Assembly (NCBI GenBank): GCA_018818925.1
Contig: JAHJQZ010000090.1
Coordinates: 62,001-126,000 of the forward strand
Origin: Alphaproteobacteria bacterium
GTDB lineage: Bacteria > Pseudomonadota > Alphaproteobacteria > Rhizobiales > Devosiaceae
DNA length: 64,000 nt
Reading direction: 5' to 3'
Shown: positions 58,984 through 64,000 of the stretch, piece after piece
Layout of the letters: each line of letters starts with the position of its first letter
How positions within the stretch are numbered: position 1 is the first letter of the stretch
Made by a program: the position numbers and the translations under genes
The notes under the pieces: generated by a model
What the model was told of the DNA's origin: nothing
The model's database searches: none
The model's input: only the letters and a program-made list of their open reading frames with translations

Positions 58984-59370
58984 CTAGCCCGCCGCCTCGG
59001 TCCGCGCCTCGGCCAGCGCCTTGAGGTCGGCCGGTTCGAGATGAACGCTTTCGCCGCAGCCGCAAGCGCCGGTCTGGTTGGGGTTTTCGAAGGTGAAGCC
59101 CTCGGACAGCTTGTCGACCCTGAAATCCATCACCGTGCCGAGCAGGAACAGTGTCGCCTTGGGTTCGACCCAGACGTCGACGCCCCTGTCGTTGACATGG
59201 TCATCGCCCTGAGGCGCTTCGGCGACATAGTCGAGCGTGTAGGCCATGCCGGCGCAGCCGGCATTCTTGACCCCGACGCGCACGCCGATCACCGGCCGGT
59301 CGGCCTCTTCCATGATTTCGCGGATGCGCGCCGCGGCGGCATCGGTCAGGCTCATGATCTTCATCGCCAT
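58984..59370 (-). CDS. sufA: SufA, A-type Fe-S carrier
   Basis: 128 residues from the ATG at 59370 behind GAGGTGA. The three cluster-ligand cysteines are present as VKNAGCAGMAY and GACGCGES. It transfers assembled Fe-S clusters to target proteins. It is the last gene of the SUF operon and is 31 bp after sufT. Confidence 0.94.
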   Translation of the reverse strand: MAMKIMSLTDAAAARIREIMEEADRPVIGVRVGVKNAGCAGMAYTLDYVAEAPQGDDHVNDRGVDVWVEPKATLFLLGTVMDFRVDKLSEGFTFENPNQTGACGCGESVHLEPADLKALAEARTEAAG

Positions 59371-59401: not shown

Positions 59402-59818
59402 TTACCACCAGTTGAGCGCGACCTGCGCCTCTTCGCTCATGCGTTCCGGCGTCCAGGGCGGATCGAACACCATTCTGATTTCGACATCGGCCACGCCTTC
59501 GACGCCGCGGACGGCGTTCTCGACCCAGCCCGGCATCTCGCCGGCCACAGGACAGCCCGGCGCCGTCAGCGTCATGTCGAGCTTGATGACGCGGTCATCG
59601 TCGAGCTCGACCTTGTAGATGAGGCCGAGCTCGTAGATGTCGACCGGAATTTCCGGATCGTAGACGGTCTTGAGGGCCGAAATCAGGTCGGCTGTCATCC
59701 GCTCGATTTCCTCTTGCGGAAGCGCGCTGCCGCCGGTCTCGATCAGTGCCATGCCGTTGCCGCCAGCGGGCGTTTCGCCCTCTGTGTCGACGCGTTCCGG
59801 CTCGGTGGCTTCTCTCAT
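59402..59818 (-). CDS. sufT: SufT, MIP18/DUF59-family Fe-S assembly protein
   Basis: 138 residues. The DUF59 core is clear: TVYDPEIPVDIYELGLIY, LTAPGCPVAGEMPGWV with the conserved Cys, and VFDPPWTPERMSEEA. SufT helps in cluster maturation, although its exact step is unsettled. The first 30 residues are variable. It lies 18 bp after sufS. Confidence 0.92.
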   Translation of the reverse strand: MREATEPERVDTEGETPAGGNGMALIETGGSALPQEEIERMTADLISALKTVYDPEIPVDIYELGLIYKVELDDDRVIKLDMTLTAPGCPVAGEMPGWVENAVRGVEGVADVEIRMVFDPPWTPERMSEEAQVALNWW

Positions 59819-59836: not shown

Positions 59837-61057
59837 TCAGACGAAAAAGCTCTTGGCCTTTTCGAGGGCTGAAACAAGCGCGTCGACATCGTCCTTGCCA
59901 TTATATAGGCCGAACGAGGCTCGGCAGGTAGAGGTGGCGCCGAAGCGCGCGAGCAGTGGCTGGGCGCAATGGGTCCCGGCCCTGACGGCCACGCCATAGC
60001 GGTCGAGAATCGTCGAGATATCATGGGCGTGGGCGCCGCCGATTTCGAAGGCGAAAATACCACCTTTTCCCTCGGCATTGCCGATCAGTCGCAGGGAATT
60101 GATCGCGCTCAACCGTTGTTGCGCATAGTCGGCCACCGCTTTCTCATGCGCGAAAATGGCGTCGCGCCCGAGCTTTTCGAGATAGGCCAGGGCCGCGCCG
60201 AGCCCGATGGCCTCGACGATGGGCGGCGTCCCGGCTTCGAAGCGGTGCGGCGGTTCGGCATAGGTCACGCCGTCGCGCGACACCGCCTCGATCATTTCCC
60301 CACCACCCTGATAGGGCCGCATTTCGGCTAAAAGGTCATACTTGCCGTAAAGCACGCCGATTCCGGACGGTCCGTAGAGCTTGTGCCCGGTCATGACGTA
60401 GAAATCCACATCGGGCGCCCGGACGTCGACCCTTGTGTGCACCGCCCCCTGGCTACCGTCGACCAGCACCGGGATGCCGCGCGCATGCGCCAGCCGGACG
60501 ATGTCGGCGAGCGGCGTCACCGTGCCCAGGACGTTCGACATGTGGGTGATGGCAACGAGCCTGGTCTTCGGGCCGAGCGCGGCCGCGAACGCATCGAGGT
60601 CGAAGGCCCCCTCGTCGGTGACGTCCACCCATTTCAGCACCGCCCCCTGCCGTTCCCTGAGGAACTGCCAGGGCACGATATTGGAATGGTGTTCCATGAT
60701 CGTCAGGACGATCTCGTCGCCCGCCCCGATACGCGGCGCCGCGAACGAGGATGCCACCAGGTTGATCGCCTCGGTCGCTCCCTTGGTGAAGACCACCTCC
60801 TCGCTCCGCCCGGCATTGAGGAAGCGCCGCACCTCTTCGCGCGCCGCCTCGTAAGCGTCGGTCGCCCGCTGCGACAGGGTGTGCAGCCCGCGATGCACGT
60901 TGGCATAGGAATGACGGTAGGTGTCGGCGATGGTGTCAATCACCGCCAGCGGCTTTTGCGCCGAGGCGCCATTGTCGAGATAAACGAGCCTATGCCCGTG
61001 AATCTGTTCGGCAAGGATGGGGAAATCGGCACGAACCGCCTCAAGATCGAAACTCAC
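59837..61057 (-). CDS. sufS: SufS cysteine desulfurase
   Basis: 406 residues from a GTG that overlaps the sufD stop (GTGA). The PLP Lys is in MTGHKLYGPSGIGVLYG (about residue 228) and the persulphide Cys in RAGTHCAQPLLARFG (about 366). It takes sulphur from cysteine for cluster assembly on SufBCD. No SufE gene is in the visible part; alphaproteobacteria may supply it elsewhere. Confidence 0.96.
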   Translation of the reverse strand: MSFDLEAVRADFPILAEQIHGHRLVYLDNGASAQKPLAVIDTIADTYRHSYANVHRGLHTLSQRATDAYEAAREEVRRFLNAGRSEEVVFTKGATEAINLVASSFAAPRIGAGDEIVLTIMEHHSNIVPWQFLRERQGAVLKWVDVTDEGAFDLDAFAAALGPKTRLVAITHMSNVLGTVTPLADIVRLAHARGIPVLVDGSQGAVHTRVDVRAPDVDFYVMTGHKLYGPSGIGVLYGKYDLLAEMRPYQGGGEMIEAVSRDGVTYAEPPHRFEAGTPPIVEAIGLGAALAYLEKLGRDAIFAHEKAVADYAQQRLSAINSLRLIGNAEGKGGIFAFEIGGAHAHDISTILDRYGVAVRAGTHCAQPLLARFGATSTCRASFGLYNGKDDVDALVSALEKAKSFFV

Positions 61058-62268
61058 GCGAGCCCCCGCGTCAGCCAGGTTTCGGCCACTGCCGACAGTG
61101 CCTCGCGCAGTTCGCCCGTCGCGATGTCCTCAAAGCTCGCCTCGAGGAAGGCCCGCACCAGCATGGCCTGCGCCTCGGCGCGCGGAATGCCCCGGCTCAT
61201 CAGGTAGAACAGGCTCTCGCTGTCGAGCGCGCCGCAGGTCGAGCCGTGCCCGCACACCACGTCGTCGGCGAAGATCTCGAGTTCCGGCTTGGCGAGGATT
61301 TCCGTTTCGTCCGAGAGCATCAAGCCATTGGCCATCATTTTGGCATCGGTCTTTTGCGCGTCCGGCTTGACGACGATCTTGCCCTGGAAGACGCCGCGCG
61401 AGCGGCCGCGCCCGACCGTCTTGTAGGTTTCCTTCGAGGTTGTGTATGCCACCTCATGGACGAGCTGCAGCGTCACGTCGCAATGCTGGCCGTCTTCGAC
61501 CAGGCTCAGCCCACGGAAATCGCCATGCGCGCCCGCCCCGGTGACGCTGGCGAAGATCTGCGTCCGCGACAGCGCCGAACCGGAATTGACAACCAGGGAG
61601 GTAAGCCTGGAATCCTCCGCGAGCCGGTACTCGACCGAAGCGAAATGCCGGACGGCCTTGCCGCTCAGGTCGACAAGAATATGCGTCAGCTCGGCATCCC
61701 TGCCGAGCGCGACGTAAGTTGCGTGATTGCCTAAGTGTGCGGAATCGCTGCCCGAGAAGCTTTCGACCACCACCGCCTTGCCGCCATCGCCGACAAAGAT
61801 CTTGACGGCGTCGGCGACATGGCACGCCGCGCCCTCGATGCGCCGGTCGATATGGATCACCGGCATGACCTCATTGTCGAGATCGAGGCGCAGCGCCATG
61901 CCGACGAGGCCGGAATTCAGGCGTACCAGCACGTCGTCGCGCGCGCTCAGAACACCGCCCGCAACCGTGCCGGCCATAACGCCCGCCGGCGCCGTGCCCG
62001 CCTGCTGCACAACGCCGTTGGCCATTTCCAGCCGGTACGCGCCCGGCACCGCGAAGGCCGGCGGGCTGGCAGTCTCGGCGGCGGCGCTCATGTCGGGCAC
62101 GTCGCGCAACAGCGCCTTCAAATCGGTATAGTGATAATCCTCGACCCGCCGCGTCGGCAGGCCGGCGCCGGCGAGCCGTTCGGCTTCGTCCGCCGCGCCC
62201 GCCGCCCGCAACTGGGAGATGAGCTTGTGCTCGGCCGGCCCGAGCCGGATCAGCGGCGCCGTCGTCAT
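61054..62268 (-). CDS. sufD: SufD, Fe-S scaffold subunit
   Basis: 404 residues of the right-handed beta-helix SufB/SufD family. ETEILAKPELEIFADDVVCGHGSTCGALD is the signature block with conserved His and Cys (about residues 330-355), and SRGIPRAEAQAMLVRAF follows. It forms SufBC2D with SufC and SufB. SufB is not in the window. The gene is coupled to sufC and sufS by four-base overlaps. Confidence 0.94.
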   Translation of the reverse strand: MTTAPLIRLGPAEHKLISQLRAAGAADEAERLAGAGLPTRRVEDYHYTDLKALLRDVPDMSAAAETASPPAFAVPGAYRLEMANGVVQQAGTAPAGVMAGTVAGGVLSARDDVLVRLNSGLVGMALRLDLDNEVMPVIHIDRRIEGAACHVADAVKIFVGDGGKAVVVESFSGSDSAHLGNHATYVALGRDAELTHILVDLSGKAVRHFASVEYRLAEDSRLTSLVVNSGSALSRTQIFASVTGAGAHGDFRGLSLVEDGQHCDVTLQLVHEVAYTTSKETYKTVGRGRSRGVFQGKIVVKPDAQKTDAKMMANGLMLSDETEILAKPELEIFADDVVCGHGSTCGALDSESLFYLMSRGIPRAEAQAMLVRAFLEASFEDIATGELREALSAVAETWLTRGLA

Positions 62269-63032
62269 GCCGTCTCTCCGACGAAGCCGGCATAGCCCTT
62301 GGCCTCGAGCTCGAGCGCCAGTTCCGGCCCGCCGGTCTCGACCACGCGCCCGGCCGAGAAAACATGCACGACGTCCGGCAGGATGTGGTTCAGGAGGCGC
62401 TGGTAATGGGTGATGACCAGCATGGCACGATCCGGCCCGCGCAAGGCGTTGACGCCTTCGGAAACGATCCTCAGCGCGTCGATGTCGAGGCCGGAATCGG
62501 TCTCGTCAAGAATGGCGAGCTTGGGTTCGAGTAGCGCCATCTGCAGGATTTCGGCGCGCTTCTTCTCGCCTCCCGAGAACCCGACATTGACCGGACGCTT
62601 GAGCATGTCGGCATCGATCTTGAGCCGGCTCGTTGCCTCCTTCACCCGCCTCATGAAGTCGGGCATGAGCAGCTCGTCCTCGCCGCGCGCCTTGCGCTGG
62701 GCGTTCATCGCCGCCTTGAGGAACGTCATGGTGGCGACGCCCGGCACTTCGACCGGATACTGGAAGGCGAGGAACAGGCCGGCGGCGGCGCGCTCATTGG
62801 GCTCCATGCCGAGAAGGGAGACACCGTCGAGCAACACCTCGCCCTCGGTGATCCTGTAGCCCTCGCGACCGCTGAGCGCATAGGAAAGCGTCGACTTGCC
62901 CGAGCCGTTCGGCCCCATGATCGCATGCACCTCGCCGCGCGGCACAATAAGGTTCACGCCCTTGAGGATTTCCTTGTCGTCCTCCTCGATCCTGACGTGC
63001 AGGTCGCGGATTTCGAGCATGGGAGTGGTCAT
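62265..63032 (-). CDS. sufC: SufC, ATPase of the SufBCD scaffold
   Basis: 255 residues. Walker A MGPNGSGKST (about residue 38), signature GFSGGEKKR, and Walker B LAILDETDSGLDIDALR, in which the SufC-type variant Asp-Glu-Thr replaces the usual Pro. It powers the scaffold. The start overlaps the stop of the cupin gene (ATGA). Earlier in-frame codons reach back over the cupin genes and are not part of it. Confidence 0.97.
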   Translation of the reverse strand: MTTPMLEIRDLHVRIEEDDKEILKGVNLIVPRGEVHAIMGPNGSGKSTLSYALSGREGYRITEGEVLLDGVSLLGMEPNERAAAGLFLAFQYPVEVPGVATMTFLKAAMNAQRKARGEDELLMPDFMRRVKEATSRLKIDADMLKRPVNVGFSGGEKKRAEILQMALLEPKLAILDETDSGLDIDALRIVSEGVNALRGPDRAMLVITHYQRLLNHILPDVVHVFSAGRVVETGGPELALELEAKGYAGFVGETA

Positions 63033-63544
63033 ATCAGGTCTTCTCCGGTGTCTTCGCCGTCCCAGTAGTCGAGCAGCGGGCGTTCGCGCCCGACGATCTT
63101 GAAATCTGCCCCCATCATGCCGCCACCCGGCGGGATGGATGCGGCGATCATGTATTTGTTGCTGTCCGGATATTCGATGATGTCCGGATCGTTGCGGGTT
63201 GAGATCGCGAGGTATTTGAGGTCCTCGTGACCGGTATTGGCGAGCTGGTGGGCTGTTCTGGCATCGCCCGCCGGCGCGGCGATGGCATCGCCCGCCTTGA
63301 CCGGCCAGGACGTGTCGCCCCTGCGATAGGTGCCCTCGCCCTGCAGCACCACGAACAGCTCTTCGTTGTTGCGATGGTTGTGGCGCGGATAGCCAGTCTT
63401 GCCCGGCGGCACGACGATATATTGCACGCCCAACGCCTCGGCGCCGACGGCGCCGCCGACCCGCGTCGTATAGGCTTCGAACCGGCCCTTCAGATGGTGC
63501 TTGACCGGCAGTTCGAACATATTGGCGATCGGTTTTTCGGTCAT
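63029..63544 (-). CDS. Cupin protein 2 in the SUF operon
   Basis: 171 residues from the ATG at 63544 behind GGGGAAG. A double-psi beta-barrel with metal ligands PRHNHRNNEELFVVLQGEGTY (His, His, Glu) and a second motif near AHQLANTGHEDLKYL is visible, and the protein ends LLDYWDGEDTGEDLI. No known SUF role. The overlaps (ATGA at both ends) mean that it is made in coupling with sufC. It is a paralogue of the next gene. Confidence 0.82.
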   Translation of the reverse strand: MTEKPIANMFELPVKHHLKGRFEAYTTRVGGAVGAEALGVQYIVVPPGKTGYPRHNHRNNEELFVVLQGEGTYRRGDTSWPVKAGDAIAAPAGDARTAHQLANTGHEDLKYLAISTRNDPDIIEYPDSNKYMIAASIPPGGGMMGADFKIVGRERPLLDYWDGEDTGEDLI

Positions 63545-63999
63545 TCTTCCCCGTCCCAATAGTCGAGTGAACTCTCCTGGCGCCCGACATAACGCACGCC
63601 ACCAGACATGGTGGACCAGTCGAAGCGCGAGGAAACGGCGAACTTGCCGCTGTCGGGATATTCGACCACGTCGCCGCCGACAGAATTGGCCGAGATGCCG
63701 AGATATTTGAGCGGTGCCGTGCCGGTATTGACGATCTGGTGCGCGACCTCGGCGCCGCCATTCGGCGCGGCCAGTACGTCGTTGGCCCGGATCGGATATT
63801 CCTTATCGCCGAACCGATAGGTGCCCTCGCCCTCAAGTATGATGAAAAGTTCCTGCGTCATGTGATGGGCATGAAAGGGAAAAGCGCGCTTGCCCGGCGC
63901 GACGACATGCAGCATGGCGCCCATGCCCGTCATGCCGATGCGCCCGGCAAAACTGCCGATCCTGGCGGCGAAGGCCTCGCCATGAGCATTGTCGCGCAG
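63541..63999 (-). CDS. Cupin protein 1 in the SUF operon, partial
   Basis: At least 152 residues; the frame is open through the right edge. It has the same domain as the downstream gene: FPFHAHHMTQELFIILEGEGTY carries the metal-binding His and Glu, and it ends SLDYWDGEE. Its stop overlaps the start of cupin 2. The 5' end and presumably sufB lie outside the window. Confidence 0.82.
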   Translation of the reverse strand: MRDNAHGEAFAARIGSFAGRIGMTGMGAMLHVVAPGKRAFPFHAHHMTQELFIILEGEGTYRFGDKEYPIRANDVLAAPNGGAEVAHQIVNTGTAPLKYLGISANSVGGDVVEYPDSGKFAVSSRFDWSTMSGGVRYVGRQESSLDYWDGEE

Positions 64000-64000
64000 T

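Follow-up and report, generated by a model that had tools for sequence, protein, structure and literature searches.

What are two cupin genes doing between sufB and sufC? They lie at the right end of the stretch of Devosiaceae DNA analysed here, which is 64,000 nt long and is called the window below, where a minus-strand suf operon runs past the edge and continues on the same contig. The gene order is NifS/IscS-like cysteine desulfurase, sufB, cupin 1, cupin 2, sufC, sufD, sufS, a gene for a SUF-associated DUF59 protein, and sufA (Table 1). The window ends at position 64000, so 44 nt of cupin 1, including its start codon at 64044, were read from the same contig. The first-pass annotation had described two paralogous cupins upstream of sufC, with ATGA overlaps at both junctions, and had suggested looking farther right for sufB. 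All of this was borne out. Both cupin genes are intact and lie between sufB and sufC; sufB ends 91 nt before cupin 1, without overlap, and an AGGAG-type site precedes the cupin 1 ATG. ATGA overlaps join cupin 1 to cupin 2 (63544-63541), cupin 2 to sufC (63032-63029) and sufC to sufD (62268-62265), while sufD and sufS share a 4-nt overlap (61057-61054) with GTG as the sufS start. Translational coupling between cupin 2 and sufC is probable, and we infer that the cupins are co-transcribed with the SUF genes.

Table 1. Features of the suf operon at the right end of the window (window coordinates)
Feature	Coordinates	Strand	Evidence
Cupin 1 (P0002, 167 aa)	64044..63541, inside window 63541..64000	-	Pfam Cupin_2; predicted metal ligands H58, H60, E65, H102
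Cupin 2 (P0001, 171 aa)	63544..63029	-	Pfam Cupin_2, 61.1 bits; model mean pLDDT 85.9
sufC	62265..63032	-	TIGR01978, 347.6 bits (cut-off 212.8)
sufD	61054..62268	-	TIGR01981, 237.4 bits (cut-off 222)
sufS	59837..61057	-	GTG start; TIGR01979, 576.8 bits (cut-off 475.1)
SUF-associated DUF59 protein (SufT-like)	59402..59818	-	TIGR02945, 152.4 bits (cut-off 143.4)
sufA	58984..59370	-	TIGR01997, 136.6 bits (cut-off 136.2)

SufB also exceeded its NCBIfam cut-off, so that the products of sufB, sufC, sufD and sufS all pass curated cut-offs within one cluster; the NifS/IscS-like protein upstream was over no curated NCBIfam cut-off among the models listed. The gap between sufB and cupin 1 (64045-64135 in window numbering; L009:10046-10136, minus strand) is longer than in most genomes with a cupin in this position. 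A stem-loop was predicted in it (z -1.86), which barely beats shuffled sequence, as 8 of 200 shuffles folded at least as well. A simple scan of this gap gave no promoter-like or terminator-like match, and an Rfam search over a 5.5-kb stretch gave no family over its cut-off.

The two cupins are 41% identical to each other by BLASTP. Both pass the Pfam Cupin_2 (PF07883) cut-off of 27.2 bits, cupin 1 with 55.1 bits for its in-window part. Metal-binding cupins carry the motif HxHx(3,4)E ... H. Relatives linked to suf genes aligned well with the window cupins in 48 cases, and residue conservation was scored over 108 distinct sequences, of which 54 were suf-linked and 54 were not. The four ligand positions (HxHx4E...H; numbered in Table 1) were invariant in 108 of 108, suf-linked and non-suf alike, and no suf-specific residue was found at the metal site among these sequences. 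The metal site is thus intact in both window cupins, in keeping with the metal-binding type proposed for them at first pass, and we class both as mononuclear-metal cupins, with metal binding itself predicted from the conserved residues. Thiol dioxygenases of the cysteine dioxygenase type have a three-histidine metal site without the motif-1 glutamate; that assignment was ruled out, the glutamate being present in 108 of 108.

The pair also shares the ending LDYWDGE near the C-terminus, as had been noticed, but this ending is not special to suf operons and, if anything, is better kept outside them. Each tested letter of a YPDSGK motif was present in 48–52 of the 54 suf-linked and 53–54 of the 54 other sequences, and the Y-x-x-G-E end was likewise retained in most of both groups. 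The tail (YPDSGK...YWDGE type) is therefore a mark of the wider cupin family. W163 of the YWDGE tail was kept in 32 of 54 suf-linked versus 51 of 54 other sequences, with F or Y in many suf-linked copies and three suf-linked rows without the tail; frequencies differed between the two groups at several further alignment columns.

NCBIfam had no model over its cut-off for either cupin. The DMSP lyase family (PF16867, cut-off 27 bits) was rejected, since cupin 2 scored 25.7 bits and cupin 1 was unlisted at E ≤ 0.001. Auxin-binding protein (PF02041, cut-off 21) gave 27.7 and 22.0 bits, which narrowly exceed that threshold and are much lower than the Cupin_2 scores. AlphaFold2 models had a mean pLDDT of 90.7 for cupin 1 minus its first 15 residues (cupin 2 in Table 1), and the tail was the least confident part of both. 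The models were mostly beta-strand, and their nearest PDB folds were cupins, led by AFE_0303 of Acidithiobacillus ferrooxidans (3l2h) and SPO2919 (3i7d), which are the nearest relatives of solved structure, with profile E-values of 3.9e-24 and 1.4e-12 and, for cupin 1, fold-search Z scores of 19.2 and 17.4. Identity to 3l2h was 24–28%, and its HxH...E...H residues aligned with those of the window cupins. Both entries are labelled sugar phosphate isomerase, a label that bears on the window cupins through likeness of sequence and modelled fold only; we found no paper naming AFE_0303 or SPO2919. Outside suf operons, two loci (L242:1429-2490 and L248) each encode one polypeptide that carries two domains of this cupin family, each half ending in a YW.GE-type motif (Pfam was run for L242).

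We surveyed how often this slot is filled. In Devosiaceae, a slot cupin was defined as a cupin (E ≤ 1e-15) lying on the strand of sufB and no more than 3 kb downstream of it, using all 94 cupin matches and the sufB matches of the 70 cupin-bearing genomes. Of 136 genomes sampled, 131 had sufB and 70 had a cupin of this family. Slot cupins were found in 63 of the 131 and in none of the other 68, although broken contigs may hide some. Most slot genomes had one (49), with two in 12 and three in 2. In 52 of the 63, the first cupin match started no more than 26 nt after the end of the sufB match. The first-pass annotation had proposed a survey of suf operons for the cupin pair. The position proved recurrent, with 79 of the 94 Devosiaceae cupin genes in the sufB-sufC slot, but the pair is uncommon, with two or three slot cupins in 14 of 131 genomes. 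Among 61 genomes comprising the window's and 60 relatives, all with sufB and compared by hand, 17 had a slot cupin: 15 of 37 Devosiaceae versus 2 of 24 from other families of the order.

Farther out the slot cupin thins quickly. An even sample of the class (289 genomes) had a cupin at E ≤ 1e-20 in 29 and sufB in 185; comparison of all 29 by hand placed the cupin in the slot in only two of the 185, the window's genome and G130. In one more genome (G159), sufB pieces and the cupin were on separate contigs. In a sample of the phylum, 30 of 398 genomes had the cupin, and suf genes flanked it in three (G000, G130 and G496) within loci spanning about 1.5 kb on each side. Best candidates were scored per genome (up to 12 in the class sample, 26 in Devosiaceae and 9 for the phylum loci), so these counts could miss cupins. 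We also took the best 80 of 434 confirmed cupin candidates, a choice that makes the result no measure of frequency; 30 of them had sufB and/or sufC around the cupin on the same strand, 27 of them both. These 30 loci include Kaistiaceae, Rhodobiaceae, Afifellaceae, Devosiaceae, Parvularculaceae, Paracoccaceae and Roseobacteraceae. Genomes with slot cupins include Devosia riboflavina, D. geojensis, D. nitrariae, Bauldia litoralis, Rubricella aquisinus, Marinicaulis flavus and Oryzibacter oryziterrae. Slot presence is partly due to shared descent, so the genomes are not independent.

A core component would be found in nearly every genome with sufB; as a general feature of suf operons, the slot cupin fails, being missing from about half of Devosiaceae and nearly all of the class sample. 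Because it is recurrent in parts of Alphaproteobacteria and patchy elsewhere, we regard it as an accessory of suf operons. Replacement of SufE by the cupin was ruled out, since SufE was found in 134 of 136 Devosiaceae genomes; the window genome has its sufE on another contig. One genome with a slot cupin and without a SufE match (G003) has a fragmented assembly. Copies away from suf genes showed by eye no recurrent partner in 15 loci and 6 more, partly overlapping ones, except that the Rhizobium-type copies L088 and L090 have neighbours in common.

The close coupling to sufC seen in the window is not general either. Among 65 distinct loci, with the start codon picked by script as that nearest the aligned first residue, cupin and sufC overlapped by 4 nt in 15 and by 1 nt in one; in the remaining 49 the two genes were 8 to 1285 nt apart, with 26 of these gaps at 31–100 nt. 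Overlap in 16 of 65 indicates that coupling belongs to some lineages, including the window's, and not to the arrangement as a whole. The companion claim, that sufB in most relatives is directly or nearly next to sufC, holds in part. The gap was measured in 38 of 44 cupin-less relatives (40 were retrieved, two of them without a measurable gap); it was at most 100 nt in 15, but 114 to 1475 nt in 23. The gap in these relatives was either short or occupied by other genes.

The other tenants of the gap are varied, and include YbjQ_1, RidA-type and ABM-type proteins and further cupins. A YbjQ_1 protein ("putative heavy-metal-binding") sits between slot cupin and sufC in two Roseobacteraceae genomes (L118:6495-6806 and L125:7145-7453). 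In Marinicaulis (L121:6516-7769), the genes after the slot cupin encode a second cupin-like protein, which falls just short of the Pfam cut-off, and a RidA-type protein (Ribonuc_L-PSP), and sufC comes next; L103 and L145 look similar by eye. ABM-type small proteins were noted with a cupin in Afifella (L071:6486-6800, below cut-off) and without one in G048 (L180:4614-4928, above cut-off). Devosia ginsengisoli has a third cupin (L120:5884-6246; Cupin_2, 50.9 bits) between two slot cupins, missed by the family queries. In one Devosiaceae genus (g6), five genomes without a cupin in the gap (loci L151, L157, L160, L165 and L168) have a similar membrane-looking protein of about 55 aa there; that of L160, the one searched, had no Pfam match. 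Gap genes at L070:833-1688, L149:5153-5937 and L177:159-527 resemble toxin-antitoxin or nucleotidyltransferase genes by eye. As other small genes also occupy the gap, position alone need not mean function.

Relationships among the cupins suggest how the slot came to be filled. On a maximum-likelihood tree of the 108 cupins, the suf label needed 9 changes, and well-supported branches force at least 8 of these, while shuffled labels needed a mean of 36. Cupin 2 clusters with slot cupins of five other Devosiaceae genomes, and cupin 1 with those of Afifella, Bauldia, Rhodobiaceae and others. Elsewhere, the best-matching protein from another genome was 71% identical for cupin 1 and 59% for cupin 2, well above the identity of the two to each other, which rules out a recent tandem duplication for the window pair. 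In 15 of 16 adjacent pairs (14 loci; some are from closely related genomes and not independent), the partner was not the closest relative of either member, and members of mixed pairs were 38–53% identical. One pair, at locus L019, does resemble a local duplication. The window's SufD is 57–59% identical to that of Devosia, versus 36–39% to that of Bauldia. Because pair members come mostly from different branches, the slot looks like an exchangeable cassette; mixed pairs with conserved sufB and sufC on both sides suggest that the gap contents have probably been exchanged by recombination between these flanks. A possible alternative is differential loss from an ancient set of paralogues. Patchy distribution and exchange of subtypes together speak against a core role.

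Extra genes between sufB and sufC have been reported before. According to the passages cited, Rhodobacter sphaeroides has a hypothetical gene there, RSP_0439, which in an iscR mutant increases alongside sufB and sufC (log2 0.67, 0.67 and 0.68, in that order; PMC4618611), and the R. sphaeroides-type arrangement is called highly conserved in Rhodobacteraceae (PMC6956336). In Caulobacter crescentus, a small ORF annotated as ADP-ribosylglycohydrolase occupies the gap, and the isc-suf genes, including this ORF, are considered one operon by the authors of that study, with RT-PCR over some junctions; its cited sections have the operon induced by iron starvation but not by peroxide or paraquat (PMC11475020). 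Both isc-suf operons are described there as IscR-regulated and resemble the window's in having an extra gene between sufB and sufC; unlike the window's cupin pair, each extra gene is single and, in these descriptions, is not called a cupin. By analogy, the window cupins are probably made together with SUF when iron is short. Set against the canonical SUF system as given for E. coli (sufABCDSE; PMC11475020), the order sufB, sufC, sufD, sufS and their products are common to both, but here two cupins separate sufB from sufC, a NifS/IscS-like desulfurase lies upstream, sufA stands at the opposite end and sufE is elsewhere.

The first-pass annotation knew of no described role for such cupins in SUF, and our searches of the open-access literature agree: no paper describing a cupin in a suf operon was found, and mentions of "cupin" in papers matching cupin and suf searches concerned other proteins or the title of a reference. 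The consulted portion of a Devosia genome study names sufE and no cupin (PMC6981132). The suf-linked cupin is apparently an undescribed accessory of SUF operons. We regard the first-pass observation as confirmed and its interpretation as partly supported.

What might the cupins do? We tentatively favour, while holding it open to considerable doubt, a reading in which the slot tenants are mononuclear-metal cupins made with SUF, serving as accessory enzymes on a small molecule and forming no part of core assembly, in a slot refilled by exchange. The cupins would be produced together with the SUF machinery and would act on a metabolite or oxidised by-product of importance under SUF induction. The slot would be filled, and refilled, by different branches of one cupin family through recombination in the sufB and sufC flanks, and the window pair would combine the Devosiaceae branch (cupin 2) with a Bauldia/Afifella/Rhodobiaceae-like branch (cupin 1). 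A catalytic role is suggested by the modelled fold and the conserved metal residues. We counted the small-molecule-type proteins that share the slot in other genomes in favour of this reading. Counting against it are the weaker constraint on the slot cupins than on sufC and a tail that varies more than in non-suf copies. Further, 79 of 94 cupins in one slot is a higher concentration than a loosely linked enzyme would lead one to expect, and it might reflect a more direct role in SUF.

Alternatively, the cupins could be neutral or near-neutral passengers in an operon gap that tolerates insertions, with a function unrelated to Fe-S clusters. We consider this unlikely, though it deserves serious attention. 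It would account for the patchy distribution, for the other lineage-specific small genes hosted by the gap, and for the scattered non-slot copies, which among those examined have no recurrent partner. It sits poorly with the gathering of most Devosiaceae copies in one place, with the occupation of that place by different branches of a single family, and with selection. In ten comparisons among five Devosia slot cupins, a set that does not include the window's own two genes, dN was 0.075–0.164 and dS 0.43–1.36, with dN well below dS in all; for sufC, dN was 0.006–0.094 and dS 0.27–0.76. The Devosia slot cupins are under purifying selection, weaker than that on sufC.

Another alternative is that the slot cupins are direct SUF factors, holding, sensing or delivering iron or another divalent metal to SufBCD, either singly or as a bicupin-like mixed pair. 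To our knowledge, where SUF directly obtains its iron has yet to be settled. The invariant metal residues, the strong concentration in the slot within Devosiaceae, the 4-nt overlaps with sufC at 15 loci, the fusion of two domains of the family elsewhere (L242 and L248) and the induction of Caulobacter isc-suf by iron starvation, as reported in the cited part of that study (PMC11475020), would all fit. We nevertheless judge such a role rather improbable. The slot cupin was not found in 68 of 131 Devosiaceae sufB genomes or in nearly all of the class sample; branches only 38–53% identical fill one slot across genomes, which is not what a protein that docks through a fixed surface would show; and copies with no suf genes nearby carry identical metal residues. 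Our reasons for favouring an accessory small-molecule enzyme over an iron donor binding SufBCD are the patchy spread, the range of branches in one slot and metal residues that do not differ outside suf. Since fused two-domain relatives exist, a mixed pair could form a two-domain unit. A specific version, to which we give little credence, has the mixed cupin pair assembled like these fused relatives, binding ferrous iron at its 3-His-1-Glu sites and loading or protecting SufBCD under iron scarcity, with subtypes swapped via the flanks. Least probable is that the inserted genes, whatever their product, mainly set SufB:SufC:SufD dosage through translational coupling and spacing: the overlapping starts and stops in the window and the foldable 91-nt gap would suit it, but sufC overlaps are confined to a minority of loci and gaps elsewhere reach 1285 nt, the gap fold hardly exceeds shuffles, and spacing alone would not need a conserved protein sequence and metal residues.

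In the Alphaproteobacteria examined, the junction between sufB and sufC is variable, which bears on the annotation of suf operons and on the choice of extra genes to test. A cupin of the metal-binding type, found repeatedly in the sufB-sufC gap of roughly half the Devosiaceae sampled, a family that includes cultured Devosia, is a concrete and testable candidate for an accessory of SUF.
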